Of a DNA stretch of 64,000 bases, positions 15,869 to 61,144 are shown in pieces. The stretch is from Crenobacter caeni (GTDB lineage Bacteria; Pseudomonadota; Gammaproteobacteria; Burkholderiales; Chromobacteriaceae): the NCBI RefSeq assembly GCF_010435965.1, contig NZ_JAAGAA010000002.1:186001-250000 (forward strand). Reading direction: 5' to 3'. A program made the position numbers and the translations under genes. The notes under the pieces are model-generated. The model searched no databases. It was not told the DNA's origin and saw only the letters and a program-made list of their open reading frames with translations. Numbering within the stretch: position 1 is the first letter of the stretch; every line of letters starts with the position of its first letter.

Positions 15869-15944
15869 TCCCTGATAGCTCAGTTGGTAGAGCGACGGAC
15901 TGTTAATCCGCAGGTCGCAGGTTCGAGCCCTGCTCGGGGAGCCA
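15869..15944 (+). tRNA. tRNA-Asn (anticodon GUU)
   Basis: A 76-base tRNA with encoded CCA. The acceptor stem TCCCTGA pairs with TCGGGGA, the D arm is GCTCAGTTGGTAGAGC, the anticodon loop CTGTTAA and the T loop TTCGAGC. Its 3' half from the anticodon stem on (15895 onward) belongs to the island-derived attL repeat, so insertion kept the gene whole. Confidence 0.97.
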
Positions 15945-15993
15945 ATAGATTCAAGCATTTAGCCCGCCATTAGGTGGGCTTTTTGCTTTGTGC
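15895..15993. repeat. attL: 99-bp direct repeat, left copy
   Basis: From the anticodon stem of tRNA-Asn (ACGGACTGTTAATCC) to GCTTTGTGC after the terminator. It is identical over 99 bases to 48400-48498. The strand exchange point must lie inside this stretch, probably in the anticodon stem-loop, the usual core for tRNA-directed tyrosine integrases. Confidence 0.93.
15961..15984 (+). terminator. Intrinsic terminator of the tRNA-Asn transcript
   Basis: AGCCCGCC, loop ATTA, GGTGGGCT, followed by TTTT. The hairpin is part of the att repeat, so an identical copy sits at 48466-48489. Confidence 0.88.
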
Positions 15994-16002
15994 CGCCTTT
16001 TT

Positions 16003-46051: not shown

Positions 46052-47377
<1,326 letters not shown>

Positions 47378-47808: not shown

Positions 47809-48153
47809 TCACGACTCGTGCGGAAACTCGCTTCCGAGGGGGGCGCCATTTAAAGGGAAGCTGCGATCTGGATTATTTGCCCGGAGCCGTCTGCGGATTG
47901 CTTCCTCCTTACTGGGCCGGCCTCTTTTGACCGGTCCTGCTTGATGAGGAGCCTTGGCCTCCTGTAGTGCAGGGGTGTGCTCGTACTGACCCTGCAGCCA
48001 GGCTTCCACATCGGATAACTGGTAACGAACCCGTCGACCGACAACGATCGCTGGTGGCAAGGCCCCCCCATTAGAACGGAGGTTGTAAATCGTCTGAACG
48101 GAAAGTCCGAGCATCTCCGCGAGCTCGGCGGGCGTCAGTAAGGCAGTCGACAT
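47809..48153 (-). CDS. AlpA/excisionase-like helix-turn-helix protein
   Basis: 114 residues (122 if an ATG at 48177 is used). LLTPAELAEMLGLSVQTIYNLRSNGG, PPAIVVGRRVRYQLSDVEAWLQG is the MerR-like winged helix of AlpA/excisionase proteins (HTH_17). A basic C-terminal part follows (PVKRGRPSKEEAIRRRLRANN). Such proteins bind next to att sites to control integrase or drive excision. It reads away from attR, 247 bases inside the island. Confidence 0.85.
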   Translation of the reverse strand: MSTALLTPAELAEMLGLSVQTIYNLRSNGGALPPAIVVGRRVRYQLSDVEAWLQGQYEHTPALQEAKAPHQAGPVKRGRPSKEEAIRRRLRANNPDRSFPLNGAPLGSEFPHES

Positions 48154-48277
48154 TAGGTGCGTCCGGTGCGCTGGCACCTGCCAGCTTGACCGTATAGCGC
48201 GGCGCGGCCACTTTGTGACACCTTATTTTTCGCAGCATTGCGGATGCTGCAAAGCGCGACCATAATGACGTCAGCGT

Positions 48278-48399: not shown

Positions 48400-48498
48400 A
48401 CGGACTGTTAATCCGCAGGTCGCAGGTTCGAGCCCTGCTCGGGGAGCCAATAGATTCAAGCATTTAGCCCGCCATTAGGTGGGCTTTTTGCTTTGTGC
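48400..48498. repeat. attR: 99-bp direct repeat with the 3' half of tRNA-Asn
   Basis: Perfect copy of 15895-15993. 48400-48449 is the anticodon stem-loop to CCA of tRNA-Asn without its 5' half, so it cannot make a tRNA. The terminator copy follows at 48466-48489. Confidence 0.93.
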
Positions 48499-48515
48499 TG
48501 CATTTTTGCTGCACT
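48496..48515. repeat. Candidate integrase arm-type site outside attR
   Basis: Identical to 16003-16022 over 20 bases. It lies in chromosomal (or older island) DNA after attR. Confidence 0.5.
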
Positions 48516-48755: not shown

Positions 48756-49721
48756 TCAAGCGATTGAAGCGTCGGGTTGGGGGAGGGCGCTTGCCTGGCG
48801 GTTGCCATTATCCGCAGTCGGGGCGTTCTGGCTGGCTGCATGCTCGATGATCTTCTGGATTACAAAGCGGGCCGCAGAAGACAGGAAGTGGTCTTGCTGA
48901 TGGATGATCGCCGCATTGAAGGAGTCGGGCAGCCCGACGAGCTTTCTGGCTTCACTGTGGTGTAGCGTTCGGCGTGCGAGTTCGGATTCCGGTACCACGG
49001 CGACGGCGTCGATCCCGGTATCGATCACGTCCATCAGCGTACGGATATCGTGGCAATCGATAAGGATGTTGGGGCGGGGAATGACCTTGCGGATGCTGTC
49101 CAGCAGGAAGTCGTCGATCTCGGCGCCGAAGGTCCTGCGGGTGACCACCAGCGGGGTAGAGGTCAACTCGGACAGATGTATGGCACTACCCGTCAGCTCG
49201 TTGCGGTAGCGTCCGGCCACCAGCGCGCAAAATGCCCTGGGCGGTAGCGGATACACCTGATACGCGCTGGCGTCATGCGGCGGCTGGGTAATCGCGAAGT
49301 CGATCTGGTGCTTGTTGACCAGCGCTTCCAGGTTGGTGAAGTTGCCGTGGATGAGCCTGAACTTGATCCCGGGCATGATCTCGTAGAGCAGCGGCAGAAC
49401 ATCCAGCAGTACGCTCAGGCACATGGTCGAGATGCCGATGGCGATGCGGGTGTTGCTGCCTTCGGTCAACTCCTGCACATCCGAAGAGGTCTCCTCGACC
49501 AGCATCAGGATGCGGCGGGCGCGCTGGTAGAGCAGTTTGCCCGCCTCGGTTACCTTCCACTGCCTGCCTTTGCGCAGGATCAGTGGTACCCCCAGTTCTT
49601 CTTCCAGTTCATGCAGGCGCTGGCTGAGCGCCGGTTGGGTGATGCACAGCACTTCCGCAGCACGGCTGATCTGTCCCTGCTCGACAATCGTGCAGAAATA
49701 ACGCAAACGTTTCAAATCCAT
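48756..49721 (-). CDS. LysR-family regulator, divergent from the DASS transporter
   Basis: 321 residues. N-terminal HTH MDLKRLRYFCTIVEQGQISRAAEVLCITQPALSQRLHELEEELG, then the substrate-binding domain from about 90. The last 25 residues are a low-complexity tail. It reads away from the transporter gene at 49920 and the space between them holds palindromes suited to LysR binding, so it probably controls that locus. Confidence 0.92.
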   Translation of the reverse strand: MDLKRLRYFCTIVEQGQISRAAEVLCITQPALSQRLHELEEELGVPLILRKGRQWKVTEAGKLLYQRARRILMLVEETSSDVQELTEGSNTRIAIGISTMCLSVLLDVLPLLYEIMPGIKFRLIHGNFTNLEALVNKHQIDFAITQPPHDASAYQVYPLPPRAFCALVAGRYRNELTGSAIHLSELTSTPLVVTRRTFGAEIDDFLLDSIRKVIPRPNILIDCHDIRTLMDVIDTGIDAVAVVPESELARRTLHHSEARKLVGLPDSFNAAIIHQQDHFLSSAARFVIQKIIEHAASQNAPTADNGNRQASALPQPDASIA

Positions 49722-49750: not shown

Positions 49751-49810
49751 GCATTCCATAAATAGAATGTATGCACGACTTGATATTACATAAAGTTATG
49801 CTTGGCATAA
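49751..49810. promoter_or_regulatory. LysR-type operator candidates in the divergent promoter region
   Basis: TTATGC-TTG-GCATAA (49796-49810) is a perfect dyad that contains the LysR T-N11-A motif. CATTC-N8-GAATG (49752-49769) is a second, weaker dyad. Both lie between the LysR gene and the DASS gene. Confidence 0.55.
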
Positions 49811-49919: not shown

Positions 49920-51500
49920 ATGGGAAGCACGACATTGCCCGGCGTTGCCGGCATGGGCGGGCGACAGCCAGAAGCACGCAAGCCCGACATGAGGGCGGAT
50001 GCAGGGTTCGATCCGCTGGACATGAGCCAGTACTCCTTGTCCAAGCTGCCCAAGCGGGCGCCGACCCAAGTCGGGGTGTTTTTCCAGCAGTGGGGATTGT
50101 TGCTAGCCGGCGTGGTCTTTGTACTGACCGCGTATCTGCTGCCGATGCCCGGACTGGACGCCAAACAGCAAGTCATGTTCGGTCTCTTTACTACTGCGCT
50201 GTTCCTGTGGATTTCCGAGGCTGTCCCCAACTACCTCACCTCGATGCTGCTGATCTGCGGCCTCATTCTCACCAAGACCCTCAAAGCCAAGGCCGCAATG
50301 GCCACCCTCGGCGACCCCACCATCTGGTTGAACGTTTCCGCTTTCATCATGGCTTCGGCGATGGTCAGTACGGACCTGGCCAAACGCGCTGCGCTGGCCT
50401 TTGTGCTCAAGTTTGGCAAGAACGCGGGAGCGCTGTTCCTGAGCTTCATGGCGATCAACATCATCCTGAGCGCCTTCATCAACGCAACCGCCGCCAAGGC
50501 CGCACTGATGATGCCGCTGTTCATGGTGGTTTCCGCCGTGTACGGCGCGCCGGGTACCAATACCACCAACAATTTTGCGCGCAACCTGGTGCTGCATAAC
50601 CTGCTGATGATCAACGCGGGCTCCAACGCCTTCATGACCGGCTCCGGGGCCAACTTGATGGGCGTGGCGCTGCTGGCCGGCGCTGGCGTCACCGTCTACT
50701 ACATCGACTGGCTGGCAGCAGGCCTGCCGATCACCATCGCGCTGGGGATCCTGACCTATGTGATCGGCGTGCGCTTCATCTTCCCGCTGACCAAGGAAGA
50801 CAAGGAGCCCAAGCTGGAGGGTGGCCGCGAAGCGCTGCAGCGCGAACTGGACAAACTAGGCAAGTTCAAGTTGGGCGAGGTGAAGGCCGCGCTGATCTTC
50901 TTTGCCGTACTGGCCATCTGGGCGACCGACAAGCTTCACGGACTCAACGCCACGGTGGTGGCGATGCTGGGTGCAACCGTGATGCTGATGCCGCAGACCA
51001 AGTTGATCGACTGGAACAAGGTCGACATCCCGTGGCACCTGATGCTGTTCTCGGCGGGTGCGTACTCACTGGGCGCTGGGCTTAACGAGACCAAGCTGAT
51101 GACCGTGCTGACCACGCAGCTGATGGACTCCCTCGGCATGAACAGCATGGGCTACTTCGAGCTGTATGCGGTGCTGACCGGCCTGTTCATCGCCTCGCAC
51201 TGGATCTTCCAGTCCAAAAACATGCGCACGTTGATCTTCCTGCCGATCGTGATCGGGGTGGCCGAGACGCTGCAACTGGATGTGATGTCACTCGCCCTGC
51301 CTGTCGCGCTGTGCATCAACATGTGCTGGACGTTGCCGTTCAACGCTAAGCCCAACGCGATGCTGTACGGCTGCAACAAATACACCATGGGTGAAGCATG
51401 GAAGTACGGCGCGACCATGTCGGTTGTCGCCTGGTTGCTGATGCTGGTCGCAGGCGGCACCTGGTTGCATTGGCTGGGCATCACCCCCGGTTTCTTCTAA
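49920..51500 (+). CDS. DASS (SLC13)-family anion:Na+ symporter
   Basis: 526 residues. A cytoplasmic N-terminal stretch of about 60 residues, then eleven or so helices. SLC13 features are SEAVPNYLTSMLLICG, NVSAFIMASAMVSTDL, the first binding-site stretch FINATAAKAALMMPLF, MLFSAGAYSLGAGL, and the C-terminal TLPFNAKPNAMLYG. Family members import di- and tricarboxylates, sulfate or phosphate. ATG 49920 follows GGGGGTAG; upstream codons are outside the family. It opens the rightward run up to the porin. Confidence 0.9.
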   Translation: MGSTTLPGVAGMGGRQPEARKPDMRADAGFDPLDMSQYSLSKLPKRAPTQVGVFFQQWGLLLAGVVFVLTAYLLPMPGLDAKQQVMFGLFTTALFLWISEAVPNYLTSMLLICGLILTKTLKAKAAMATLGDPTIWLNVSAFIMASAMVSTDLAKRAALAFVLKFGKNAGALFLSFMAINIILSAFINATAAKAALMMPLFMVVSAVYGAPGTNTTNNFARNLVLHNLLMINAGSNAFMTGSGANLMGVALLAGAGVTVYYIDWLAAGLPITIALGILTYVIGVRFIFPLTKEDKEPKLEGGREALQRELDKLGKFKLGEVKAALIFFAVLAIWATDKLHGLNATVVAMLGATVMLMPQTKLIDWNKVDIPWHLMLFSAGAYSLGAGLNETKLMTVLTTQLMDSLGMNSMGYFELYAVLTGLFIASHWIFQSKNMRTLIFLPIVIGVAETLQLDVMSLALPVALCINMCWTLPFNAKPNAMLYGCNKYTMGEAWKYGATMSVVAWLLMLVAGGTWLHWLGITPGFF

Positions 51501-51567
51501 GCAAGTCCTCCCGATTTTCATCCTGTCTGATGCTCCGGCCCATGCCGGCCGGAGCAAGGGGGAAGCT

Positions 51568-51765
51568 ATGTCTTCGATTTGCGCGGAATACATGGAAGTC
51601 AGCGATTTTGAAACCGGCGAGATCACCCGCTACGAGATCGTCGACGATCCTGCCGAGCATGATGTCAGGGCCCACCGCCTGTTCCGGCTGGCGCCTGTCG
51701 TGATTGCCGGGCAAATGCAGCAGGAACTCGCGCGCAAGGCCCGGCAAGCAGAAGGAGGACGTTGA
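51568..51765 (+). CDS. Small 65-residue acidic/basic protein of unknown function
   Basis: 65 residues, MSSICAEYMEVSDFETGEIT at the start, soluble, with an amphipathic C-terminal helix (IAGQMQQELARKARQAEGGR). GGGGGAAG precedes the ATG. Its stop overlaps the start of the next gene (TGATG), so translation is coupled. Not recognised. Confidence 0.7.
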   Translation: MSSICAEYMEVSDFETGEITRYEIVDDPAEHDVRAHRLFRLAPVVIAGQMQQELARKARQAEGGR

Positions 51766-53159
51766 TGGAGGATAGGGTCGAGTTGGCCGCCTGCGTGCAC
51801 GACGCAATGCAGCTGAGGATAACGGCGCAGGGAAAGCTTCTTGCCGCCCGTAGCCAACTGGACGTTTTCATGCTGGTGCCGGCGCAACTCGATATCCAGC
51901 CGGCTAATTTTTCACGGGAGCTGTTTTACCGATACCTGAAGAACCGTTTTGCGCTGCTGCCCGAATGCAGGACGCTTGCGGAACTGGCCGAGCCGGCCTG
52001 TATTGCTAGCTTGACCGAAGCGGCAAGGACCGGGCCGGCGCGCTACCACGAGGCAGCCGCCCGCTGGGCGCGGCAGTTCTCCAAAGCGTTGGGTGAGGGG
52101 CTCGGACAGGCGACAGACGAAGCTGTTCTGCGCCAAGTGGGCGAACAGGCCCGACATGCCCTGGCCCGTTTCAGGAGTATCGAGCCGGTGATGCTCAGGG
52201 CTGCCTACCTGATGGTCAACGACTATCTGGGCCAGCAATTGCAGCAGTTGTACCTGCAGCATTTCGCGCGCCAAAGCGACGGCGCAGCGAGTAGCCAACT
52301 GGTCGAAGTGTTGCAACTGGAGCGGGACTGGCGGCGGGAGCGGGGGCTGCCAGGCTTGCCGAGCGGCGCACACAAAGGCGCCGAATTGCAGCACTTCACC
52401 ACGTTGCAGCATTTCTGCCTGACCCCGCTGCTACCACTGGCCAAACGTGTGGAGTCTGGTGTCTGGGTGCAGCACGTGATTAGCGGCATGGCCGCAGCGC
52501 TGGCGATGACCATCGCGATGTTGATCGCGTTCTGGTCGCAGATGAAGTACGGCAACTTCACCGCACCCTTTCTGATCGCGATGGTCGCCGGGTACATCCT
52601 CAAGGATCGGGTCAAGGAAGTCAGCCGCTTGCAGACCATACGGCGGCTTAGCCGGCGCCTGTTTGATTACCGGACTTCACTTGAGTGCCGGACGGCACGG
52701 GGGTGCATTGCCAGCATCTACGAAAGATTCTGGCTGGGCACGCCAACTGAAGCGACAGACCGCCAACTGCGGGCGATGAGTCGGCGCTACCGCAAGCGCT
52801 ACCACCCGCAAGGCTCCAGCTTGCTGGCCTACACCCGACTGGTGGCCCCGCAGGCAACCGCTGCCTTGTCCGCGTCCACTTGCGAGGACGTGCAGGTGAT
52901 CAACCTGCAGAAACTGCTGCGCAACGCGGCGCGTGACGAGCGGGAGATCTGGTTTCTTGAAGGCGAGCGCATCAGGCACAAGGCCGTCAGGCCCCGCTAC
53001 CGGATCGGCCTGTTACTGCGCTACCAGCGCGGGGAGTGTGTCCGCTATCAACGCTACGACCTGGATGTGACGTACAAGGGCATCCAGTCACTGGAAACAC
53101 GGTCGGAAGGGAAGTATCCGCGGGCCAGGTCATTTTTTGAGAAATTGGGGAGAGCATGA
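51765..53159 (+). CDS. Unknown 464-residue membrane-anchored protein
   Basis: A soluble, mostly helical N-terminal part (1-225), two adjacent membrane helices near 235-285 (HVISGMAAALAMTIAMLIAF and FTAPFLIAMVAGYIL), then a basic, Arg-rich cytoplasmic part ending DVTYKGIQSLETRSEGKYPR. No family is recognised. Placed between the 65-residue protein and the PhoU-like gene; coupled to both (one-base overlap upstream, four bases ATGA downstream). A sensor or regulator of the transporters is one idea, with no direct support. Confidence 0.8.
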   Translation: MEDRVELAACVHDAMQLRITAQGKLLAARSQLDVFMLVPAQLDIQPANFSRELFYRYLKNRFALLPECRTLAELAEPACIASLTEAARTGPARYHEAAARWARQFSKALGEGLGQATDEAVLRQVGEQARHALARFRSIEPVMLRAAYLMVNDYLGQQLQQLYLQHFARQSDGAASSQLVEVLQLERDWRRERGLPGLPSGAHKGAELQHFTTLQHFCLTPLLPLAKRVESGVWVQHVISGMAAALAMTIAMLIAFWSQMKYGNFTAPFLIAMVAGYILKDRVKEVSRLQTIRRLSRRLFDYRTSLECRTARGCIASIYERFWLGTPTEATDRQLRAMSRRYRKRYHPQGSSLLAYTRLVAPQATAALSASTCEDVQVINLQKLLRNAARDEREIWFLEGERIRHKAVRPRYRIGLLLRYQRGECVRYQRYDLDVTYKGIQSLETRSEGKYPRARSFFEKLGRA

Positions 53160-53827
53160 TGATTTTCGACAAGATCAAGAACACTTTATTGATCGACAGC
53201 CAGCGTCTGCGTAATGACCTGGACAGCTATTTCGACCTGGTCGGCGACGCAGGCGAGGTCTTCGCCTGCCTGCTTGGCCAGTACATGAGTACTTCTTCGG
53301 TTAACCCGCCCTTTTACGCGAGCCTGCAGCGGCTGAACGAGATCGAGCTTGCCGCCGACGCGCTGCGCCGCGGTATCGAAACCTACGTTTACGAGAAGAC
53401 CTTGATTCCTGACCTGCGTAGCGACGTGCTGAAAATGATTGAGCAACTCGATACGCTGATCAACGCGCAAAAGGCGTTGGCCATCAGCCTGGAAGTCGAG
53501 CAGCCCGCCATTCCCGAGCGCTTCGCGCCCGACTTCATCGCGTTGCAGCAGAGCGTACAAAAGTGTCTTGAGCATGTGGTGCTCGCCTCGCGGGCCTTCT
53601 TCCGCGACACCGCGGCCGTCCGCGACCACTGTCACAAGGTGATTTTCTGCGAGAGCGAGGCGGACCGGCTGTGCACCGACCTCAAACGTGCGGTGTTCAG
53701 CAGCGACGAGGAACTGTCCTGGAAACTGCACATGCGCTACTTCATCGAGCGCATCGACATGGTGGCCAACCGGGCCGAGGATCTCGCCGACCAGCTGGTG
53801 ATCTTTGCCCTTAAGCGCAGCATGTGA
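53156..53827 (+). CDS. DUF47/PhoU-like phosphate transport accessory protein
   Basis: 223 residues, all helical. IKNTLLIDSQRLRNDLDSYFDLVGDAGEVF and repeated Glu/Asp-rich helices such as FCESEADRLCTDLKRAVF and RIDMVANRAEDLADQLV form the PhoU-type metal-binding bundles of the Pit accessory (DUF47) family. These genes usually precede a PiT gene, as here. It probably regulates the phosphate transporter. Confidence 0.88.
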   Translation: MMIFDKIKNTLLIDSQRLRNDLDSYFDLVGDAGEVFACLLGQYMSTSSVNPPFYASLQRLNEIELAADALRRGIETYVYEKTLIPDLRSDVLKMIEQLDTLINAQKALAISLEVEQPAIPERFAPDFIALQQSVQKCLEHVVLASRAFFRDTAAVRDHCHKVIFCESEADRLCTDLKRAVFSSDEELSWKLHMRYFIERIDMVANRAEDLADQLVIFALKRSM

Positions 53828-53835
53828 GGCCGGAC

Positions 53836-55326
53836 ATGGACCCGATTGCCCTGTTCCTCCTCTCCAGCGGCTTGTTCCTTGGCTGGTCGCTCGGCGCCAA
53901 CGACGCGGCCAACGTATTCGGCACCGCTGTCGGCAGCCGCATGGTGCGCTTTGGCACTGCGGCGCTGATCTGCTCGGTCTTCGTGATCTTGGGCGCCACC
54001 ATCAGCGGTGCCGGCGCCGCGCATACCCTGTCCCAACTGGGCGCCATCAGCGAGCTGGGTGGTGCATTCGCCGCCGCGCTCTCCGCTGCAGCGGCGGTGA
54101 TGATGATGACCCACTACGGGCTGCCGGTTTCAACCGGGCAGGCCATCATTGGCGCCATCATTGGCTGGAACCTGTTCTCTGGTACCCAGATCGATACCAG
54201 CGTGCTCTCCAAGATCCTGATGACCTGGGTGCTCTGCCCGATCTTGTCGGCCATCGTCGCGGTTGCCCTGTACCGGGGGACCGACTGGACGCTCAGGCAT
54301 GTTAAGCCGCATGTGTTGACACTGGACGCGGGCGCGCGCTGGGCGCTGATTGTCGCCGGTGCGTTTGGTTCGTACAGCCTGGGTGCCAACAACATTGCCA
54401 ACGTGATGGGCGTGTTCATGAACAGCGTGCAGCTGCCGTCGCTATCGCTGGGCCTGTATACCCTGAGTCCCGTGCAGACCCTGTTCCTGGTCGGCGGCGT
54501 CGCCATCGCGGCCGGGGTGTATACCTACTCGAAACGGGTGATGCTGACCGTAGGCCAGGGGCTGATGCCCCTGTCGCCGGTCGCGGCGTGGGTGGTGGTG
54601 ATGTCGCACTCGGTGGTGCTCTTCCTGTTCGCCTCGCAAGACCTGCAGACCTTTCTCGCCAGCCACAACCTGCCGACGATTCCGCTGGTGCCGGTTTCCA
54701 GTTCGCAAGCCATCGTGGGCGCCGTGATCGGCATCGGCCTGCTAAAGGGCGGGCAGAGTATCAACTGGCGCATGGCAGGAAGGATCACCGGCGGCTGGGT
54801 GCTGACCCCCTTCATTGCAGCTGCGGTCTGCCTCGCCTGCCTGCTGGTCGTACAGAACGTGATGCGCCTGCCCGTCCATGAGGTACAACGCTACGAGCTG
54901 AGTGAAGAAGTCCTGCTCGAAGCCCGCCGGCAAGGCCTGCAGGTCGGGGCCTTGCAAGCGGCCGAAGGACGCACCTTTGAGCGTGCCGATAAGCTGAGCC
55001 GCTATCTGGCGCAGCAAGGCTTGCCGGATGAAGCGGGGCTTGAAACGCTGGTCTCGCTGGCTCGGACCTCGCCGATGGTGGTTGGCCACCCCGGGCAGAC
55101 GCTGCCGTTATTGTCGCAAGCCCAACAGCAGGACCTGCTCGCTCTGAAAGGTGCGACCTTCACACACACCTGGCAATTGCGGCAGGCACTCGAGGCGTGT
55201 GGCGCGCATTGGCTGCCGCGCGAATCAACGCCGCTAAATGCAAAGTTCAACAAGCATATTGAACTCGTATTTTCAAAGTTGTACGCGGAATTCAAAATTC
55301 CGAACAATGGAGGTGAAGGCATATGA
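53836..55326 (+). CDS. pitA: PiT-family inorganic phosphate transporter with C-terminal extension
   Basis: 496 residues. The duplicated PiT signatures are LGANDAANVFGTAVGSR and LGANNIANVMGVF, with HYGLPVSTGQAIIGAIIGW and VPVSSSQAIVGAVIG. About 355 residues with ten helices are standard; a soluble tail of about 140 residues follows (from HEVQRYELSEEVLLEARRQG), unlike normal PiT proteins. It takes up phosphate (with H+ or as metal phosphate). The ATG at 53836 has GAGG upstream; GTG 53824 is an alternative. Confidence 0.9.
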   Translation: MDPIALFLLSSGLFLGWSLGANDAANVFGTAVGSRMVRFGTAALICSVFVILGATISGAGAAHTLSQLGAISELGGAFAAALSAAAAVMMMTHYGLPVSTGQAIIGAIIGWNLFSGTQIDTSVLSKILMTWVLCPILSAIVAVALYRGTDWTLRHVKPHVLTLDAGARWALIVAGAFGSYSLGANNIANVMGVFMNSVQLPSLSLGLYTLSPVQTLFLVGGVAIAAGVYTYSKRVMLTVGQGLMPLSPVAAWVVVMSHSVVLFLFASQDLQTFLASHNLPTIPLVPVSSSQAIVGAVIGIGLLKGGQSINWRMAGRITGGWVLTPFIAAAVCLACLLVVQNVMRLPVHEVQRYELSEEVLLEARRQGLQVGALQAAEGRTFERADKLSRYLAQQGLPDEAGLETLVSLARTSPMVVGHPGQTLPLLSQAQQQDLLALKGATFTHTWQLRQALEACGAHWLPRESTPLNAKFNKHIELVFSKLYAEFKIPNNGGEGI

Positions 55327-55430
55327 TAAAAAAATGGCTGTATTTTCATGTGCGTCGGCTTGTTAAAAAATCGGAGCGAAGACGCCGAAGGTTTTCGCTG
55401 CCCGGGATATACGGCAGGGTATGTAGGTAA
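55323..55430 (+). CDS. Possible 35-residue basic peptide coupled to pitA
   Basis: ATG 55323 overlaps the pitA stop (ATGA), with GGAGG at 55309-55313. Product MIKKWLYFHVRRLVKKSERR plus about 15 more residues, strongly basic. It may be real or a chance reading after the PiT gene. The rest of the gap up to 55547 is AT-rich leader with a small hairpin at 55492-55507. Confidence 0.35.
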   Translation: MIKKWLYFHVRRLVKKSERRRRRFSLPGIYGRVCR

Positions 55431-55547
55431 AAAAACAACAAAAAATGCTTGATTCAAAATAAAAACTGATGCCTAATTTAAATATCAAATCTTCGCCGGA
55501 AGGCGAAAAATAAAACCACCATCCATACCAAATCAAAAGGAAATGTC

Positions 55548-56192
55548 ATGACCGAAAAGAAAGCCCTCGTCATTGGTGAAATCTCCAAGCCGCGTTTTGA
55601 ATTCCGCACTTTCGGCCAGGATTTCAGCGAAGCGTCCAAGCGGATGGCCCGCCTGTCCCAGCCGGTGCCGGAAAAGGTATGGGAGCGACAGTCTGACGAG
55701 ATTTACATCATGTCCCGCACCAATGATGTAAACAACACCAAGATCCGCGACGGCAAGATGGACATCAAGACCTATGTGCAGACTGTGGATGGCCTTGAGC
55801 AATGGAATCCGCTGATGAAAGGCGAATTCCCGATGTCGCGCGCACAACTGGAAGCAGAAGTGTTCCCGGCCTTCCAGGTCGAGATGCCGCAGCTGACACA
55901 AGAGCAACTGACGCTGGACGAGTTCCTGGCCCTGATCGATGCCCACCCCGACCTGCAGGCGGTTCGCGTGCACAAGCAGCGCTTCGGCTACATGGTAAAC
56001 GACACCATCTGCGAAGTAGCCAATGTGCTGATCAACGGCGCCAAGCTGGTGTCGATCAACTCCGAATCGACCGAAGTAGCCGACATCCTGAAGACGGTAG
56101 ACGATGTGCGCCTGTCCGGTGTGGAGAACATCAATTACCTGCAAGCGATCAAGCGTGTGGTCGGCATGATCAACAAGCCACTGGCAAACTGA
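55548..56192 (+). CDS. CYTH-like (triphosphate tunnel fold) protein
   Basis: 214 residues, cytoplasmic. Remote CYTH features: RFEFRTFGQ at the start, EIYIMSRTNDVNNTKIRDGKMDIKTYV followed by GLEQWNPLMKGEFPM, and later RVHKQRFGYMVNDTICEVANVLING with SINSESTEVADILKTV and NYLQAIKRVVG. Lys and Arg residues alternating with strands fit a tunnel that binds a triphosphate. It could be a phosphatase, a cyclase-type enzyme or a sensor. First of three such genes in a row. Confidence 0.6.
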   Translation: MTEKKALVIGEISKPRFEFRTFGQDFSEASKRMARLSQPVPEKVWERQSDEIYIMSRTNDVNNTKIRDGKMDIKTYVQTVDGLEQWNPLMKGEFPMSRAQLEAEVFPAFQVEMPQLTQEQLTLDEFLALIDAHPDLQAVRVHKQRFGYMVNDTICEVANVLINGAKLVSINSESTEVADILKTVDDVRLSGVENINYLQAIKRVVGMINKPLAN

Positions 56193-56200
56193 TGCCGATC

Positions 56201-56219
56201 GGCGGGGCGATGCCCCGCC
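56201..56219 (+). other. Intercistronic hairpin between the two CYTH-type genes
   Basis: GGCGGGGC-GAT-GCCCCGCC, an 8-bp perfect stem without a T run after it. More likely an RNA-stabilising or partial stop structure than a full terminator. Confidence 0.5.
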
Positions 56220-56250
56220 TACTTCAATTATTCAAAAAGGATTCAATTAG

Positions 56251-56718
56251 ATGGCTAACGAAATCGAACGCAAATTTCTGGTAAAAGGTGACTTCCGTAC
56301 TTCCGTCCTCAAGGAGCAGCGCATTACCCAGGGCTACCTGTCTTCGGTTCCCGAGCGCACCGTGCGCGTGCGCATCAAGGGCGACAAGGGCTTCATCACG
56401 ATCAAGGGCATTGGCAGCGCGTCGGGCGCCTCCCGCTACGAGTGGGAAAAGGAAATTCCGGTCGCCGAAGTTGAAGAACTGCTGAAAATATGCGAACCGG
56501 GCGTGATCGACAAGATCCGCCACCTGGTACAGGCCGGTGCACATACCTACGAAGTCGACGAGTTCTTCGGCGACAACGAGGGGCTGATCGTAGCCGAAGT
56601 CGAACTCTCCAGCGAAGACGAAGCCTTCGACAAGCCTGAATGGCTGGGCGAGGAAGTGACGGGTGAAACCCGCTACTACAACTCGATGCTGATGAAGCAG
56701 CCTTTCAAGACCTGGTAA
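56251..56718 (+). CDS. CYTH-domain protein, probable inorganic triphosphatase
   Basis: 155 residues, the size of single-domain triphosphate tunnel metalloenzymes. The N-terminal EIERKFLVKGDF is the defining ExExK motif; RVRIKGDKGFITIKG, RYEWEKEIP, IRHLVQAGAHTYEVDEFFGDNEGLIVAEVEL (acidic metal ligands) and ETRYYNSML complete the fold. Related proteins from Nitrosomonas and Clostridium hydrolyse tripolyphosphate. Soluble and cytoplasmic. Confidence 0.92.
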   Translation: MANEIERKFLVKGDFRTSVLKEQRITQGYLSSVPERTVRVRIKGDKGFITIKGIGSASGASRYEWEKEIPVAEVEELLKICEPGVIDKIRHLVQAGAHTYEVDEFFGDNEGLIVAEVELSSEDEAFDKPEWLGEEVTGETRYYNSMLMKQPFKTW

Positions 56719-56750
56719 TGATTTGATTCAGGTTGCGAGTTGCGATTTGC

Positions 56751-56775
56751 AGGGGGCTACGGCCCCCTATTTTTA
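56751..56775 (+). terminator. Intrinsic terminator after the CYTH gene
   Basis: AGGGGGC-TACG-GCCCCCT (56751-56768) followed by ATTTTTATTT. Confidence 0.85.
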
Positions 56776-56891
56776 TTTGCTGGTTTGAATTTTTTGTATT
56801 TCCTTTTGTTATACGTAGCATTTCTATTTGCGATACCGCTAAGTTTTAATTCCATTATATTGGTCGTGAATCTTTTGTTGAGGGGGTACAC

Positions 56892-57824
56892 ATGAGGAAA
56901 ATGGTCGCCATCCCGTTTGCCGTAGCTGGTGCGTTTGTACTGGCCAGTTCGTCCGCGCTGGCCGGGGCGCAACAGCGCCACGCTGCAAACAGCCAGTTGT
57001 GGAAGCCGCACGGGGAAGTTTCCGGGGCGGAGTACAAGTTCCAGTTGGACGGAAAATACTGCGCCGACCCCGCACAGGATTTCAAGAAAGTATGGGCCGT
57101 CATCCGGACTGAGGCGGAGAAAGCTGGTTTTCCGGCTACTGACATCAAGAAGCTCAAACTCAGGCAAGGCACCAAAGACTATCTGGATACGCCTGCAGAC
57201 GCGCTGAAGCATGCGGGGTTTATCGTCCGTGTGAATACCCGTTACGAAGACGGCATTGCTGAAAATCCGCTGCGGGTATCGGTAAAGACCAGCGGCAAGG
57301 ATGCCGCCTTCGTGCTGGGAACGTCGCTGTTTACGCGGGGCGCCAAGGGAAAGATCTCTGCCGAGGACAACCCCAGTCTCGGCCAGGGTGGCGTGATGGT
57401 CAGCAACGTCGAAAAGGGGGTCGACCTCAAGCTTGCGCCTTCGCAGTTTGAGGGGATGACCTTGGGTGAGTTCACGCGCTACGTACCGGACCTCAAGAAG
57501 TCCGGGCTGCCTGGCAACACCAAGCTTGAAGCGACCCGGGCGTACTACCGCTCGGCAACCGTCGGCAAGATCACGCTGGGAATGGGGGAGGCCGAAGCCA
57601 AGCTGGAGACCTGGTCTCGTACGGCCGGCGGCGCCCCCATGCTTTGCGAATTCTCGTACGGTTACGAGGACGTCGATTACTTCAAAACCCCTGAGCTTGT
57701 GGAGGCCGGAGACGCGTTTTACCGCAAGGTCGTGTTGTCACCGGCTGTCCGCGAGATGCAGTTGCCTGGGTTTGAGAAGTTTGGTGGCTCGAAGACCCGC
57801 CTGCTACGGAATCAACCGCTTTAA
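56892..57824 (+). CDS. Exported CYTH-like protein
   Basis: 310 residues with a signal peptide ending ASSSALA (about residue 24). The mature part has CYTH-like lines: LRQGTKDYLDTPADALKHAGFIVRV (compare the Y-F-D-T-P-x-x-x-L-x-x-x-G motif), NPLRVSVKTSG, GVDLKLAPS and CEFSYGYEDVDYF. The usual N-terminal ExExK is replaced by AEYKFQLDGKY. It would work in the periplasm, where polyphosphate-like substrates brought in by the porin encoded next could be met. The family name is my inference. Confidence 0.6.
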   Translation: MRKMVAIPFAVAGAFVLASSSALAGAQQRHAANSQLWKPHGEVSGAEYKFQLDGKYCADPAQDFKKVWAVIRTEAEKAGFPATDIKKLKLRQGTKDYLDTPADALKHAGFIVRVNTRYEDGIAENPLRVSVKTSGKDAAFVLGTSLFTRGAKGKISAEDNPSLGQGGVMVSNVEKGVDLKLAPSQFEGMTLGEFTRYVPDLKKSGLPGNTKLEATRAYYRSATVGKITLGMGEAEAKLETWSRTAGGAPMLCEFSYGYEDVDYFKTPELVEAGDAFYRKVVLSPAVREMQLPGFEKFGGSKTRLLRNQPL

Positions 57825-57850
57825 TTCCTAATTTTCTTCAAGGGGGTCAA

Positions 57851-58948
57851 ATGAAAGCCAAGCAGTGGAGTCTCGTGGTGCCGTTCTGCATGTTGCCGGC
57901 GTTTGCACAGGCAGAGGTGGAAATCTACGGCCGGATCAACGCGGGGTTTGATTCGGTCAAGGAAATCGCGCTCAAGGGACAGGGGCAACGCATCAACGGG
58001 GTCAACGACAACACCTCCCGGATCGGGTTTCGAGGCAAGGAGAATCTGGGTAATGGCCTGGCGGCCATCTGGCAGGTGGAAAGCCGGATCGAGATAGACG
58101 GCTCCAAGGAGCGGGCATGGGCTTCGCGCCAGTCGTTTATCGGTCTGGAGACCGCCGGCTACGGGGTGTTCAAGCTGGGCTACCTGGACAACTTCGGCAA
58201 GGAAAGCTGGATGGACGACATTGACCCGATCAAGGTCAAGGCGTTCGAGAACAACTTCGTACGGGTCACCGGCGAGCGGGTCAAGAATGCGGTCAGCTAC
58301 TACTCGCCCAACTGGTATGGCTGGGAACTCGCACTGACCTACGGCACCAGCGAACTCGACCACAAGCAGATGGCTGATGCAGAACTCAAGTATCCGGACA
58401 ACGCCCAGCATACCTACGACGTGGGTATCAGCTACCAGTACGGCCCCTATCTGGCGGCCTACGAGTACACCAAGTTTGAGGGACAGAACAGGCAGAAGAA
58501 GAAGCCTGATTTGCCGGTAAACGCGTACAACCACCGAGCCCAGCTTGGTTACGACGGGGATACGGTTTTCTGGACGGTGGCTTACCAGCAGGGCAAGGGA
58601 GTTAGCACAGCGCTCTATGAAGATGATGCTTTCAGAGACGTACTTAGCAAGCATTTAGGTTGGGATTACAAGAAGGACAATCCGGCCAAGTACCGTGAAA
58701 TGTCGGTGGCCTCCGAGTACAAGCTGGGCAAGAAAATGCGGCTGAAGGCCTATGTCACCAAGGGTTGGGACCTGCAGACAGATCAGGGAACCATAAGTGA
58801 TAGCGGATACCTTCAATACGCGGCGGCAGTGCGTTACGATCTCTCCAAACGTACCAATCTTGAGCTAGCTGCCGGCCAATGGTCTTTCGATACCGACCAT
58901 CTGGACAAGGCCAACGGCGTAGGCTTCGGGATTTTCCACAAGTTCTGA
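57851..58948 (+). CDS. Gram-negative porin (Neisseria/OmpC-like)
   Basis: 365 residues with a signal peptide (to AQA), then EVEIYGRINAGFDSV, NTSRIGFRGKENLGNGLAAIWQVESRI and FIGLETAGYGVFKLGYLDNFGK as in betaproteobacterial trimeric porins. It ends GVGFGIFHKF with the terminal Phe needed for Bam-dependent insertion. Loops are rich in Lys, which suggests an anion-preferring pore. It lies 26 bases after the exported CYTH-like gene and before a strong terminator, so it is probably the last gene of the run. Confidence 0.94.
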   Translation: MKAKQWSLVVPFCMLPAFAQAEVEIYGRINAGFDSVKEIALKGQGQRINGVNDNTSRIGFRGKENLGNGLAAIWQVESRIEIDGSKERAWASRQSFIGLETAGYGVFKLGYLDNFGKESWMDDIDPIKVKAFENNFVRVTGERVKNAVSYYSPNWYGWELALTYGTSELDHKQMADAELKYPDNAQHTYDVGISYQYGPYLAAYEYTKFEGQNRQKKKPDLPVNAYNHRAQLGYDGDTVFWTVAYQQGKGVSTALYEDDAFRDVLSKHLGWDYKKDNPAKYREMSVASEYKLGKKMRLKAYVTKGWDLQTDQGTISDSGYLQYAAAVRYDLSKRTNLELAAGQWSFDTDHLDKANGVGFGIFHKF

Positions 58949-58967
58949 CCGGGACACGCTGTCGGCA

Positions 58968-59002
58968 CAGGGCGGCGCCAGCAGGCGCCGCCCTGTTTGT
59001 CT
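58968..59002 (+). terminator. Strong intrinsic terminator after the porin gene
   Basis: CAGGGCGGCGCC-AGCA-GGCGCCGCCCTG (58968-58995), then TTTGTCTT. Confidence 0.9.
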
Positions 59003-59059: not shown

Positions 59060-59602
59060 ATGGCCGCACCGGATGCCGGCATGCTTTTCGTGCAGTTCGC
59101 CAAGGTGGGCCTCTCCGGCTTTGGCGGCTGCCTGCCATGGGCCCAACGCGCGCTGGTCGACAAGTTGCGCTGGCTTGACCAGAAAACATTTACGGAGTTG
59201 CTGGGCATTGCGCAGGTGCTGCCCGGCCCCAACGTCTGCAACCTGGCGCTGATTGTCGGCACGCAGTTTGCCGGTTGGCGGGGCGCCGCCGCAGCCCTGG
59301 GCGGCTTGCTGTGTGCGCCTTGCCTGATCGTCCTGGCCTTGGGCGCGGCCTACGCGCATTTCGGCCACCAGCCTCAGGTGCACGCCGCGCTCTCGGGCAT
59401 GGCGTCGGTCGGTGCGGGCCTGTTGCTTGCCAGCGCGCTGAGCCTGTTAAGAGGCTTATCCGGGCGGCGGGCCGACGTGCTGCTCGCAATGGCCGCGTGT
59501 GCCGCGCTGGGGGTGTTGGGCTGGTCGCTGTGGATGGTGCTCGCCGTGCTGGTGCCCGCCGCGCTGGCCCTGCACGCGTACACAGGACGGCGCGATGGCT
59601 GA
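59060..59602 (+). CDS. chrA: Chromate transporter, N-terminal-type half (short-chain CHR)
   Basis: 180 residues with about six helices. FVQFAKVGLSGFGGCLPWAQ and QKTFTELLGIAQVLPGPNVCNLALIVG are the CHR domain motifs. Long ChrA proteins have two such domains in one chain; here they are on two genes that overlap by eight bases. Paired short CHR proteins work together in chromate export. GGGGAAGAGGGG precedes the ATG. Confidence 0.9.
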   Translation: MAAPDAGMLFVQFAKVGLSGFGGCLPWAQRALVDKLRWLDQKTFTELLGIAQVLPGPNVCNLALIVGTQFAGWRGAAAALGGLLCAPCLIVLALGAAYAHFGHQPQVHAALSGMASVGAGLLLASALSLLRGLSGRRADVLLAMAACAALGVLGWSLWMVLAVLVPAALALHAYTGRRDG

Positions 59603-60128
59603 CCCCCAGGTGCTATGGACGCTGGCGGTTTTTTTCGGCCGTCTTTCCCTGCAGGCTTTCGGCGGCGTCAATGTGGCCCTGGGAAGCATGCAGCGCTTTT
59701 TTGTCGTCGAGCAGCAGTGGCTGGGCGCGGCCGAGTTTGCCGAACTCTTTGCCCTCGCGCAGACGGCGCCCGGGCCCAATGTGATCGTGGTGACCTTGCT
59801 GGGCTGGCGGGTGGCCGGCTTGGCGGGCGCGCTGGTGTCTACCCTGGCCATGCTTTTGCCAGCGGCACTGCTCGTTTACCTGTGTGCCTGCACGCTGGTG
59901 CGCGGCAGGCAGCAACAGCTCGTGAAAGCCCTGCTCGCTGCGCTGGCCCCTGCCACGGTCGGCCTGTTGCTCGCGTCGGGTGGCATCTTGGCCCGCTCCA
60001 GCAACCACGGGCTGTCTGGCTGGGTGTTGACGCTGGTGACCGCTGTGGTCGCGTTATCCTGCCGCGCGCATCCACTGTGGTTGATCGCAGTTGGAGGACT
60101 GGCAGGCCTGCTTGCCGGGCATGCCTGA
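59595..60128 (+). CDS. Chromate transporter, C-terminal-type half (short-chain CHR)
   Basis: 177 residues. FFGRLSLQAFGGVNVALGSMQ and EFAELFALAQTAPGPNVIVVTLLGW correspond to the second CHR domain. Its ATG is within the end of the first chr gene. No chromate regulator is adjacent, and CHR proteins can also move sulfate-like anions. Confidence 0.88.
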   Translation: MADPQVLWTLAVFFGRLSLQAFGGVNVALGSMQRFFVVEQQWLGAAEFAELFALAQTAPGPNVIVVTLLGWRVAGLAGALVSTLAMLLPAALLVYLCACTLVRGRQQQLVKALLAALAPATVGLLLASGGILARSSNHGLSGWVLTLVTAVVALSCRAHPLWLIAVGGLAGLLAGHA

Positions 60129-60235: not shown

Positions 60236-61144
60236 TTACCTTCCCTTGCCGGCGCCCAGCCGTGCGGCCAGATGTGCTGCCAGATAGTCGACAAAGGCGG
60301 CCAGACGCGGCGCCAGTGTGCCTTGCCGGTAGAACACGGCCCATACCGGTAAGCTCCAGTCCAGCCTTGCTGCAGGTAATACCTCGCACAACTTCCCCTG
60401 GGCGAGCGCGTCGGCGACTAGGAAGTCGGACAGGCAGGCGATGCCGGCGCCTTCCAGCGCCAGACGGTACAGCGTCTCCCCGCTGGAGGCCGCCAGCGAT
60501 GGTCGGATGGCGAGCCCGTCGCCGCCGGCGTGCCGTAGCGGCCACAGGTTGAGCGAGACGGGCTGGGTGAAACCCAGCAGTCGGTGCGCGGCCAGTGCGT
60601 CGACGCTGGCGGGCGTACCGTGGCGGGCCAGGTAGGCGGGTGCGGCGACCAGCCGCAAGGCCGTTTCACCCAGCCTGCGCGCGTTGAGGGTCGAGTCCGC
60701 CAGAGTGCCCAGTCGGATCGCGACGTCGGCGCGCTCCTCGATCAGGTCGACGACGGTTTCCCCGTGGGTCAGTTCCAGTTGCACCTGCGGGTACGCGTCC
60801 AGAAACCCAGCTACCAGCGGCGCGATCAGGTGGGCCAGCACCGGCGTCGCCGCGTTGACGCGCACGAGGCCTGAGGGCTGGCCGAGGCTGTTTGCCAGCT
60901 GGGCCTCGGTTTCTGCGAGTTCCGCGAGGATGGCGCGGGCGCGTTCCAGCAGCCAGCGTCCCTCTTCAGTCAAGTCGAGCCGGCGGGTGGTGCGGGTGAT
61001 CAGGCTGATGCCCAGCTGGCTCTCCAACCGCGAGATGGTGCGGCTGATGCCGGACGGCGTCTGCCCGAGGCGCTCGGCCGCCGCCGAGAAAGAGCCGGCG
61101 TCGATGACGGCACAAAACGCGGTCAGCGCGTCGATGTTCAGCAT
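60236..61144 (-). CDS. LysR-family regulator divergent from the MFS efflux gene
   Basis: 302 residues. MLNIDALTAFCAVIDAGSFSAAAERLGQTPSGISRTISRLESQLG is the HTH, followed by the effector domain and RLGAGKGR at the end. The layout is that of CrgA/DsdC-like LTTRs, which act beside MFS or reductase genes. It probably controls the gene starting at 61262. Confidence 0.92.
   Translation of the reverse strand: MLNIDALTAFCAVIDAGSFSAAAERLGQTPSGISRTISRLESQLGISLITRTTRRLDLTEEGRWLLERARAILAELAETEAQLANSLGQPSGLVRVNAATPVLAHLIAPLVAGFLDAYPQVQLELTHGETVVDLIEERADVAIRLGTLADSTLNARRLGETALRLVAAPAYLARHGTPASVDALAAHRLLGFTQPVSLNLWPLRHAGGDGLAIRPSLAASSGETLYRLALEGAGIACLSDFLVADALAQGKLCEVLPAARLDWSLPVWAVFYRQGTLAPRLAAFVDYLAAHLAARLGAGKGR

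Follow-up and report, generated by a model that had tools for sequence, protein, structure and literature searches.

Gene content and organization of the locus

We analysed a 64,000-nucleotide window of the Crenobacter caeni genome (contig NZ_JAAGAA010000002.1, positions 186,001 to 250,000 of the forward strand), which carries a locus of eight co-directional genes on the plus strand (49920-58948) and a divergent gene for a LysR-family regulator on the minus strand (48756-49721; Pfam HTH_1 E 8e-22, LysR_substrate E 7e-18). The locus combines a CYTH protein of the inorganic-triphosphatase type with two transporters, a porin and several further proteins, and a preliminary description made from the sequence had read it as a system for importing and cutting inorganic phosphate chains. 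This reading is partly supported by our results, which favor it for a core of genes that recurs in distantly related bacteria but leave it unproven for the substrate and the peripheral genes.

The first gene of the series encodes a DASS-family anion transporter of 526 amino acids (aa; 49920-51500), with a match to Pfam Na_sulph_symp at E 2e-61 and to TIGR00785 above its cut-off (205.1 versus 198.6 bits). The nine genes had been placed correctly at the outset, but a 65-aa open reading frame (ORF) behind the DASS gene (51568-51765), which is intact and nearly identical in Crenobacter intestini, had been missed. It is followed by a gene for a 464-aa protein (51765-53159) that has no Pfam or NCBIfam match and for which no solved relative was found. 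A hydrophobic hairpin lies at about residues 235-282 of this protein; one segment (235-258) exceeded the hydropathy cut-off in a scripted scan, and the second half was read from the sequence. The next two genes are adjacent and overlap, and both exceed their Pfam cut-offs: one encodes a DUF47/PhoU_div protein (53156-53827; E 5e-21), likely an accessory of the PiT transporter, and the other a PiT-family (PHO4) transporter of 500 aa (53824-55326; E 8e-52 over residues 24-335). Beyond a gap of 221 bp lie genes for a 214-aa protein (55548-56192), the 155-aa CYTH protein (56251-56718; Pfam E 2e-15), a 310-aa exported protein with a signal peptide at about residues 1-24 (56892-57824), and a PorB-like porin with a signal peptide read from the sequence (57851-58948; Pfam Porin_4 E 7e-36). 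The family assignments made earlier for the DASS, DUF47, PiT and porin proteins are thus upheld.

The tight spacing that had been taken as a sign of a single function holds only inside three blocks. Strong terminator-like hairpins stand on the plus strand 3' of the CYTH gene (56751-56768) and 3' of the porin gene (58967-58996), and because both are kept in C. intestini and the 221-bp gap precedes the 214-aa gene, a single transcript for all nine genes is unlikely. The genes are probably transcribed in three units, namely DASS to PiT (including the 65-aa ORF, the 464-aa gene and the DUF47 gene), the 214-aa and CYTH genes, and the exported 310-aa protein with the porin. The scan that listed the hairpins returned 13 terminator-like sites in all, compared with 9.2 ± 2.6 in shuffled sequences, and one promoter-like site, compared with 3.4 ± 1.8. 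The division into blocks is therefore based on two hairpins that stand out by strength, position and conservation, not on the total of the scan.

Control of the DASS block probably falls to the LysR protein, and two palindromes lie in the gap between the LysR and DASS genes. The first (CATTCCATAAATAGAATG, 49752-49769) may be a LysR operator, and only its first base is changed in C. intestini; the second (49796-49810) also differs there by one base. A further palindrome, TTCGCC-GGAA-GGCGAA, lies 5' of the 214-aa gene (55492-55507). Its counterpart in C. intestini is TTCGCT-AATT-AGCGAA, a paired change in both arms, and it could be a hairpin or an operator.

The CYTH enzyme and two CYTH-like proteins

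The CYTH protein scored 57.8 bits against a Pfam cut-off of 23.2, and its residues 1-147 match NE1496 of Nitrosomonas europaea (3typ, E 9e-18; 2fbl, E 2e-17). This relative, NeuTTM, has been described as a triphosphatase specific for inorganic triphosphate, with Tyr-28/Lys-52 proposed as its catalytic dyad (PMC3440374). Tyr29 and Lys52 of the locus protein align with the proposed dyad, and the Glu, Lys and Arg residues of the tunnel are kept; in an alignment of 11 sequences, the locus copy included, E4, E6, K8, Y29, R39, R41, K52, E64, K88, R90, E101, D103 and E116 are invariant. The protein is certainly a CYTH protein, of NeuTTM type and related to the Nitrosomonas inorganic triphosphatase, and the same activity is predicted from this membership.

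Three CYTH-type proteins had been proposed, of which this one is established by profile; the 214- and 310-aa proteins resemble CYTH only in the order of their motifs. The 214-aa family conserves E18-x-R20, E51-x-Y53, K65-x-R67, K74, E84, K143-x-R145, E156 and E173, an order that, judged by eye, is that of CYTH proteins. None of five members scanned to E 10 matched Pfam CYTH, and the single Pfam match was one to YlbF at E 0.12. A profile-profile comparison with CYTH, built from few sequences, gave an hhalign P of 0.01, which is not significant. In a search of the family profile against 336 ORFs plus their reversals, CYTH proteins made up most of the best non-self matches, but their E values were about 2 and a reversed decoy stood among them. 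No relatives of the 214-aa protein were found in a scan of viral contigs.

The 310-aa protein combines its N-terminal hydrophobic segment with an E-x-K first-strand motif and a YLDTPADALKHAGFIVRV motif, and it has no significant profile match to Pfam CYTH. Three of four cytosolic relatives reach CYTH without passing the cut-off (E 0.003-0.023), and the fourth, from Nostoc, has no match. The 310-aa protein was the top non-self match of the profile of these relatives (E 0.24; a reversed decoy scored 0.71), and hhalign gave P 0.006 between the two. A profile-profile comparison of the 310-aa protein with CYTH, again built from few sequences, was not significant, and a plasmid search with the protein gave no match. 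AlphaFold models from two-sequence alignments offered no usable fold, with mean confidence (pLDDT) of 32.8 for the 310-aa and 35.0 for the 214-aa protein. In view of the weak profile statistics and the lack of a usable model, we call these two proteins CYTH-like, not members of the CYTH family.

Transporters and porin

Na+/dicarboxylate transporters of the DASS family carry Ser-Asn-Thr substrate motifs. Aligned to solved relatives, the locus protein reads INAT and SKNMRT where these carry SNT-type motifs, and the DASS protein of a Citrobacter cluster described below has ISAT and SKTART at the corresponding positions. Since the locus protein departs from the canonical motifs, we make no claim of Na+/dicarboxylate transport; added positive charge here could help to accommodate an anion of high charge. 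A DASS protein (33% identical) with an SKTVKT motif is encoded on the Klebsiella plasmid pmk2 (L021 5945-9173), between a divergent LysR gene and a histidine-phosphatase gene.

The PiT protein matches the PHO4 profile with 176.7 bits (cut-off 33.7) and the solved relative 6l85 at E 7e-22, and it has a C-terminal extension of about 150 aa. In NCBIfam it comes closest to the CysP sulfate permease, with 73 bits where the cut-off is 400, and PitA scored just 19 bits. DUF47/PiT pairs serve the transport of inorganic phosphate (Pi), and with CysP so far under its cut-off it is the DUF47 partner that favors phosphate over sulfate as the substrate. Porin_4/Porin_1 and PorB (PDB 4aui, E 1e-22) are the matches of the porin, and Porin_O_P (PF07396) is not among them.

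Conservation and genomic setting

All nine genes are conserved in the same order in C. intestini (G002). The eight co-directional genes show 90-99% protein identity (95% for the 310-aa protein) and a ratio of nonsynonymous to synonymous substitution rates (dN/dS) of 0.016-0.159, and the LysR proteins agree at 313 of 321 residues. Given this order, identity and dN/dS, the arrangement is not due to chance; the locus is real, conserved and accessory. Two of four Crenobacter genomes have it; searches of the other two (G001 and G003) yielded no 464-, 310- or 214-aa gene. Homology between G001 and the downstream flank ends at window position 60254, so both the locus and the chromate-transporter (PF02417) genes that follow the porin gene (59060-60128) are absent from G001; G003 gave no match to this flank. 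The porin-end/chromate-transporter region that follows the locus occurs in C. intestini a second time (L053 15550-16987).

Among 150 related genomes, the own genome included, there were three matches to the 464-aa protein (one of them distant) and two each to the 310- and 214-aa proteins. Profile searches of class samples of 369 genomes, again counting the own genome, returned three, one and four matches to the 464-, 310- and 214-aa proteins, respectively, and an order sample of 220 genomes, likewise with the own genome, gave four of the 214-aa family.

The locus begins just beyond the right end of a probable integrated island. A 108-bp direct repeat (98%) of the 3' end of tRNA-Asn, at 15895-16002 and 48400-48507, brackets about 32.5 kb. 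Within this stretch lie a gene with an AlpA-like helix-turn-helix (47809-48177) and another with an integrase core (rve; 46923-47369).

Recurrence of a CYTH core in other bacteria

The preliminary description had held that genes scattered in relatives would refute its reading. The CYTH, 214-aa and DASS genes stay clustered elsewhere. A Citrobacter freundii plasmid (NZ_CP026058.1) carries a LysR gene, CYTH (51% identical to the locus copy), the 214-aa gene (37%), DASS (41%) and a 464-aa homologue (24%, E 1e-18) in a row; in a megablast search this cluster had no match in E. coli and matched only itself among plasmids. A 5.5-kb contig from a genome of the same order as Crenobacter (G548) reads Porin_O_P (E 5e-41), a lipoprotein, the 214-aa gene (68%), CYTH (74%) and the start of a DASS gene (32% over residues 12-80, E 4e-6), where the contig ends. 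As the three genes are contiguous in both, in an order other than that of Crenobacter, their linkage is not merely a local arrangement. A genome of the same class (G395) has the 214-aa gene (31%) and CYTH (48%) in tandem, with a gene for a DUF4010 membrane protein opposite. DUF4010 is a possible alternative membrane partner, since it also stands near CYTH in Bacteroides finegoldii, where Porin_O_P, CYTH (64.5% identical to the locus copy) and DUF4010 genes lie in a row (L020 4926-7811).

The 214-aa domain is also joined to a Ppx/GppA exopolyphosphatase-type domain, once on a Cupriavidus plasmid and in two genomes of one genus, G578 and G540 (L018 11986-13479; L039 466-2043; L040 7538-9289). 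The Ppx/GppA part matches Pfam at E 8e-47, 9e-51 and 1e-47, respectively, and the Cupriavidus fusion is nearest to the TIGR03706 exopolyphosphatase (211 bits, cut-off 307). Pfam gave the 214 part no name in any of these fusions, and NCBIfam gave it none in the Cupriavidus protein, the one scanned. All three fusions adjoin a CYTH-like protein of the 310-aa type.

Altogether, homologues of the 214-aa protein were found at ten loci: CYTH is adjacent in five (the present locus, C. intestini, G548, Citrobacter and G395), and three are the Ppx/GppA fusions. The remaining two are a copy cut by a contig end (G438) and a distant copy joined to a GPP34 domain (G166) that has no such neighbor. A CYTH gene considered as neighbor of the G438 copy is not supported by the contig sequence. 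A chromate-transporter pair lies beside the distant G166 gene as well (L027 9140-10261), perhaps by coincidence.

A candidate pathway for phosphate chains

We suggest, at close to even confidence, that the locus is an accessory module by which the cell obtains phosphate from inorganic triphosphate or short polyphosphate. The anion would pass the outer membrane through the porin, which is PorB-like here and of the phosphate-selective type in G548. The exported 310-aa CYTH-like protein might bind the chain in the periplasm or optionally trim it, and DASS would then take a small charged chain through the inner membrane. In the cytosol the NeuTTM-type CYTH protein would cleave triphosphate (PPPi) into pyrophosphate (PPi) and Pi; the 214-aa protein would act beside it, either as another tunnel-type enzyme or as a partner that holds the chain. 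PiT and its DUF47 partner would move free Pi, and the pathway would be under LysR control. We infer the substrate, the direction of transport and each catalytic step, as well as the roles of the 214-, 310- and 464-aa proteins, from gene content and family. Beyond the recurrence of the core, Porin_O_P in G548 and the fusions of the 214-aa domain to Ppx/GppA support a phosphate chain as the substrate.

Several results weigh against this proposal. The argument that a lysine-rich porin would favor anions fails, because its 30 Lys residues belong to a total of 46 basic residues that are offset by 46 acidic ones, leaving the protein net neutral. To our knowledge, no member of the DASS family has been shown to transport phosphate chains. 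A scan with the PhoB consensus revealed no Pho box: the LysR-DASS gap offered at best a match of 9/14, which 151 of 300 shuffles reached as well, and matches in the other gaps did not exceed 8, so control by PhoB under phosphate starvation is not supported. Elsewhere in the genome lies a second NeuTTM-type CYTH gene, 69% identical to the one in the locus, and a single NeuTTM-like gene (77-78% identical to the locus copy) is present in each of G001 and G003; the locus copy is therefore not the sole likely triphosphatase. Neither the Citrobacter locus nor the 5.5-kb, cut contig of G548 gave a match to PiT, DUF47, the 310-aa protein or the PorB-type porin. The LysR proteins of the Crenobacter and Citrobacter clusters are only 24% identical.

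Nor does a NeuTTM-type CYTH gene, as a rule, lie in such a cluster. Ten plasmid CYTH loci, drawn from 100 records with a match and inspected with flanks of 4-12 kb, included one with 214-aa, DASS and 464-aa genes, one with Porin_O_P and DUF4010 and one with CHAD, and seven with none of these. As for the neighborhood search with the 464-aa protein that had been proposed as a test, the Citrobacter homologue follows DASS, and three distant chromosomal homologues (G420, G512 and G079) all lie in unrelated neighborhoods, for which reason we do not use this protein to argue function. Its family was not found in seven genomes searched without a positive control, among them the 214-bearing G548, G395, G438, G540 and G578; a plasmid search with the Crenobacter protein gave no match, and the Citrobacter protein as query found only itself.

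It would be tempting to go further and see here an undescribed, horizontally spread pathway for eating tripolyphosphate, in which a DASS transporter with altered motifs imports the intact chain, CYTH and the 214-aa protein cut it, and an exported CYTH-like protein serves the periplasm in Crenobacter. This fuller version is tentative and, on balance, rather doubtful.

Alternative explanations

CYTH and the 214-aa protein have neither a signal peptide nor a transmembrane segment, and this is consistent with a module that handles chains made within the cell, for homeostasis or export, where CYTH, the 214-aa protein and PiT/DUF47 would clear PPPi and PPi and balance Pi while DASS exports or exchanges an anion. 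The fusion of the 214-aa domain to an exopolyphosphatase-type domain in three of ten loci, the part that DUF47/PiT pairs play in Pi transport, and the CHAD gene that adjoins one CYTH gene fit this explanation too. However, the gene run of G548 includes an outer-membrane porin of the phosphate type, and the Crenobacter block has an exported CYTH-like protein and a porin beside it, all of which point to a supply from outside, and we consider an internal role unlikely.

The hairpins and the 221-bp gap that split the genes, the probable mobile island next door and the ordinary PorB type of the porin would also be expected if two or three independent operons had come to lie side by side by chance: a DASS operon of the dicarboxylate type, a block for phosphate, and a general porin together with a secreted protein. 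The contiguity of CYTH, 214-aa and DASS genes in Citrobacter and G548 in a different order makes this improbable, although it does not cover the 310-aa/porin pair or PiT-DUF47. Finally, thiamine triphosphatase and the CyaB cyclase are CYTH proteins too (PMC3440374), but an organic triphosphate or other phosphoanhydride as substrate (for example nucleotide or thiamine triphosphate), or a CYTH protein that makes cAMP, with DASS carrying a metabolite, is very unlikely given the NeuTTM type of the enzyme with its conserved Tyr/Lys pair and the partners found elsewhere, a Ppx/GppA domain fused to the 214-aa domain and a phosphate-type porin.

Relation to known systems

The proposed phosphate-chain module resembles several known systems in part. 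The locus CYTH protein shares with NeuTTM/NE1496 its similar length, the match over residues 1-147, the tunnel residues and the Tyr/Lys positions, but its gene stands together with those of a transporter and a 214-aa partner, and its activity is predicted from the family. The PiT-DUF47 pair, with its adjacent, overlapping genes, is of a familiar kind; it differs in the long C-terminal extension of PiT and the 464-aa gene upstream, and no such pair is annotated in the Citrobacter cluster. OprP and OprO of Pseudomonas are porins for phosphate and pyrophosphate, OprO being specific for pyrophosphate (PMC9769906). Together with Pst they combine a porin with inner-membrane uptake of a phosphate anion, and the G548 version has a Porin_O_P gene, but the Crenobacter porin is PorB-like, the inner-membrane step would be taken by DASS instead of Pst, and no Pho box was found.

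CYTH-type proteins have been linked to phosphate chains (PMC6537752, PMC4641920): CHAD proteins bind polyphosphate, and many have a TTM domain (PMC6537752), and in Acidithiobacillus a CYTH-CHAD gene adjoins ppk (PMC6416229). The locus would share this tie with TTM proteins of the YgiF/VTC type and with CHAD proteins, but neither CHAD nor SPX is among the Pfam matches of the nine genes. Haloferax volcanii grows on external polyphosphate as sole phosphorus source with an enzyme that is still unknown (PMC13318637), a way of life like the one proposed here, but the main text of that report contains neither the word 'transporter' nor the word 'CYTH'. Among open-licence papers, we found no description of a DASS-CYTH or DASS-CYTH-porin system.

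Tripolyphosphate is common in detergents and food, and such external tripolyphosphate may be the source of the chain. Whether inorganic triphosphate, on which specific triphosphatases such as NeuTTM act, exists in living cells has been raised as an open question (PMC3440374), and a triphosphatase linked to a transporter offers a direct test of it. If the proposal is true, it would add a new kind of cargo to the DASS family, and would hint at what two unannotated protein families do, one of which is fused to an exopolyphosphatase-type domain.

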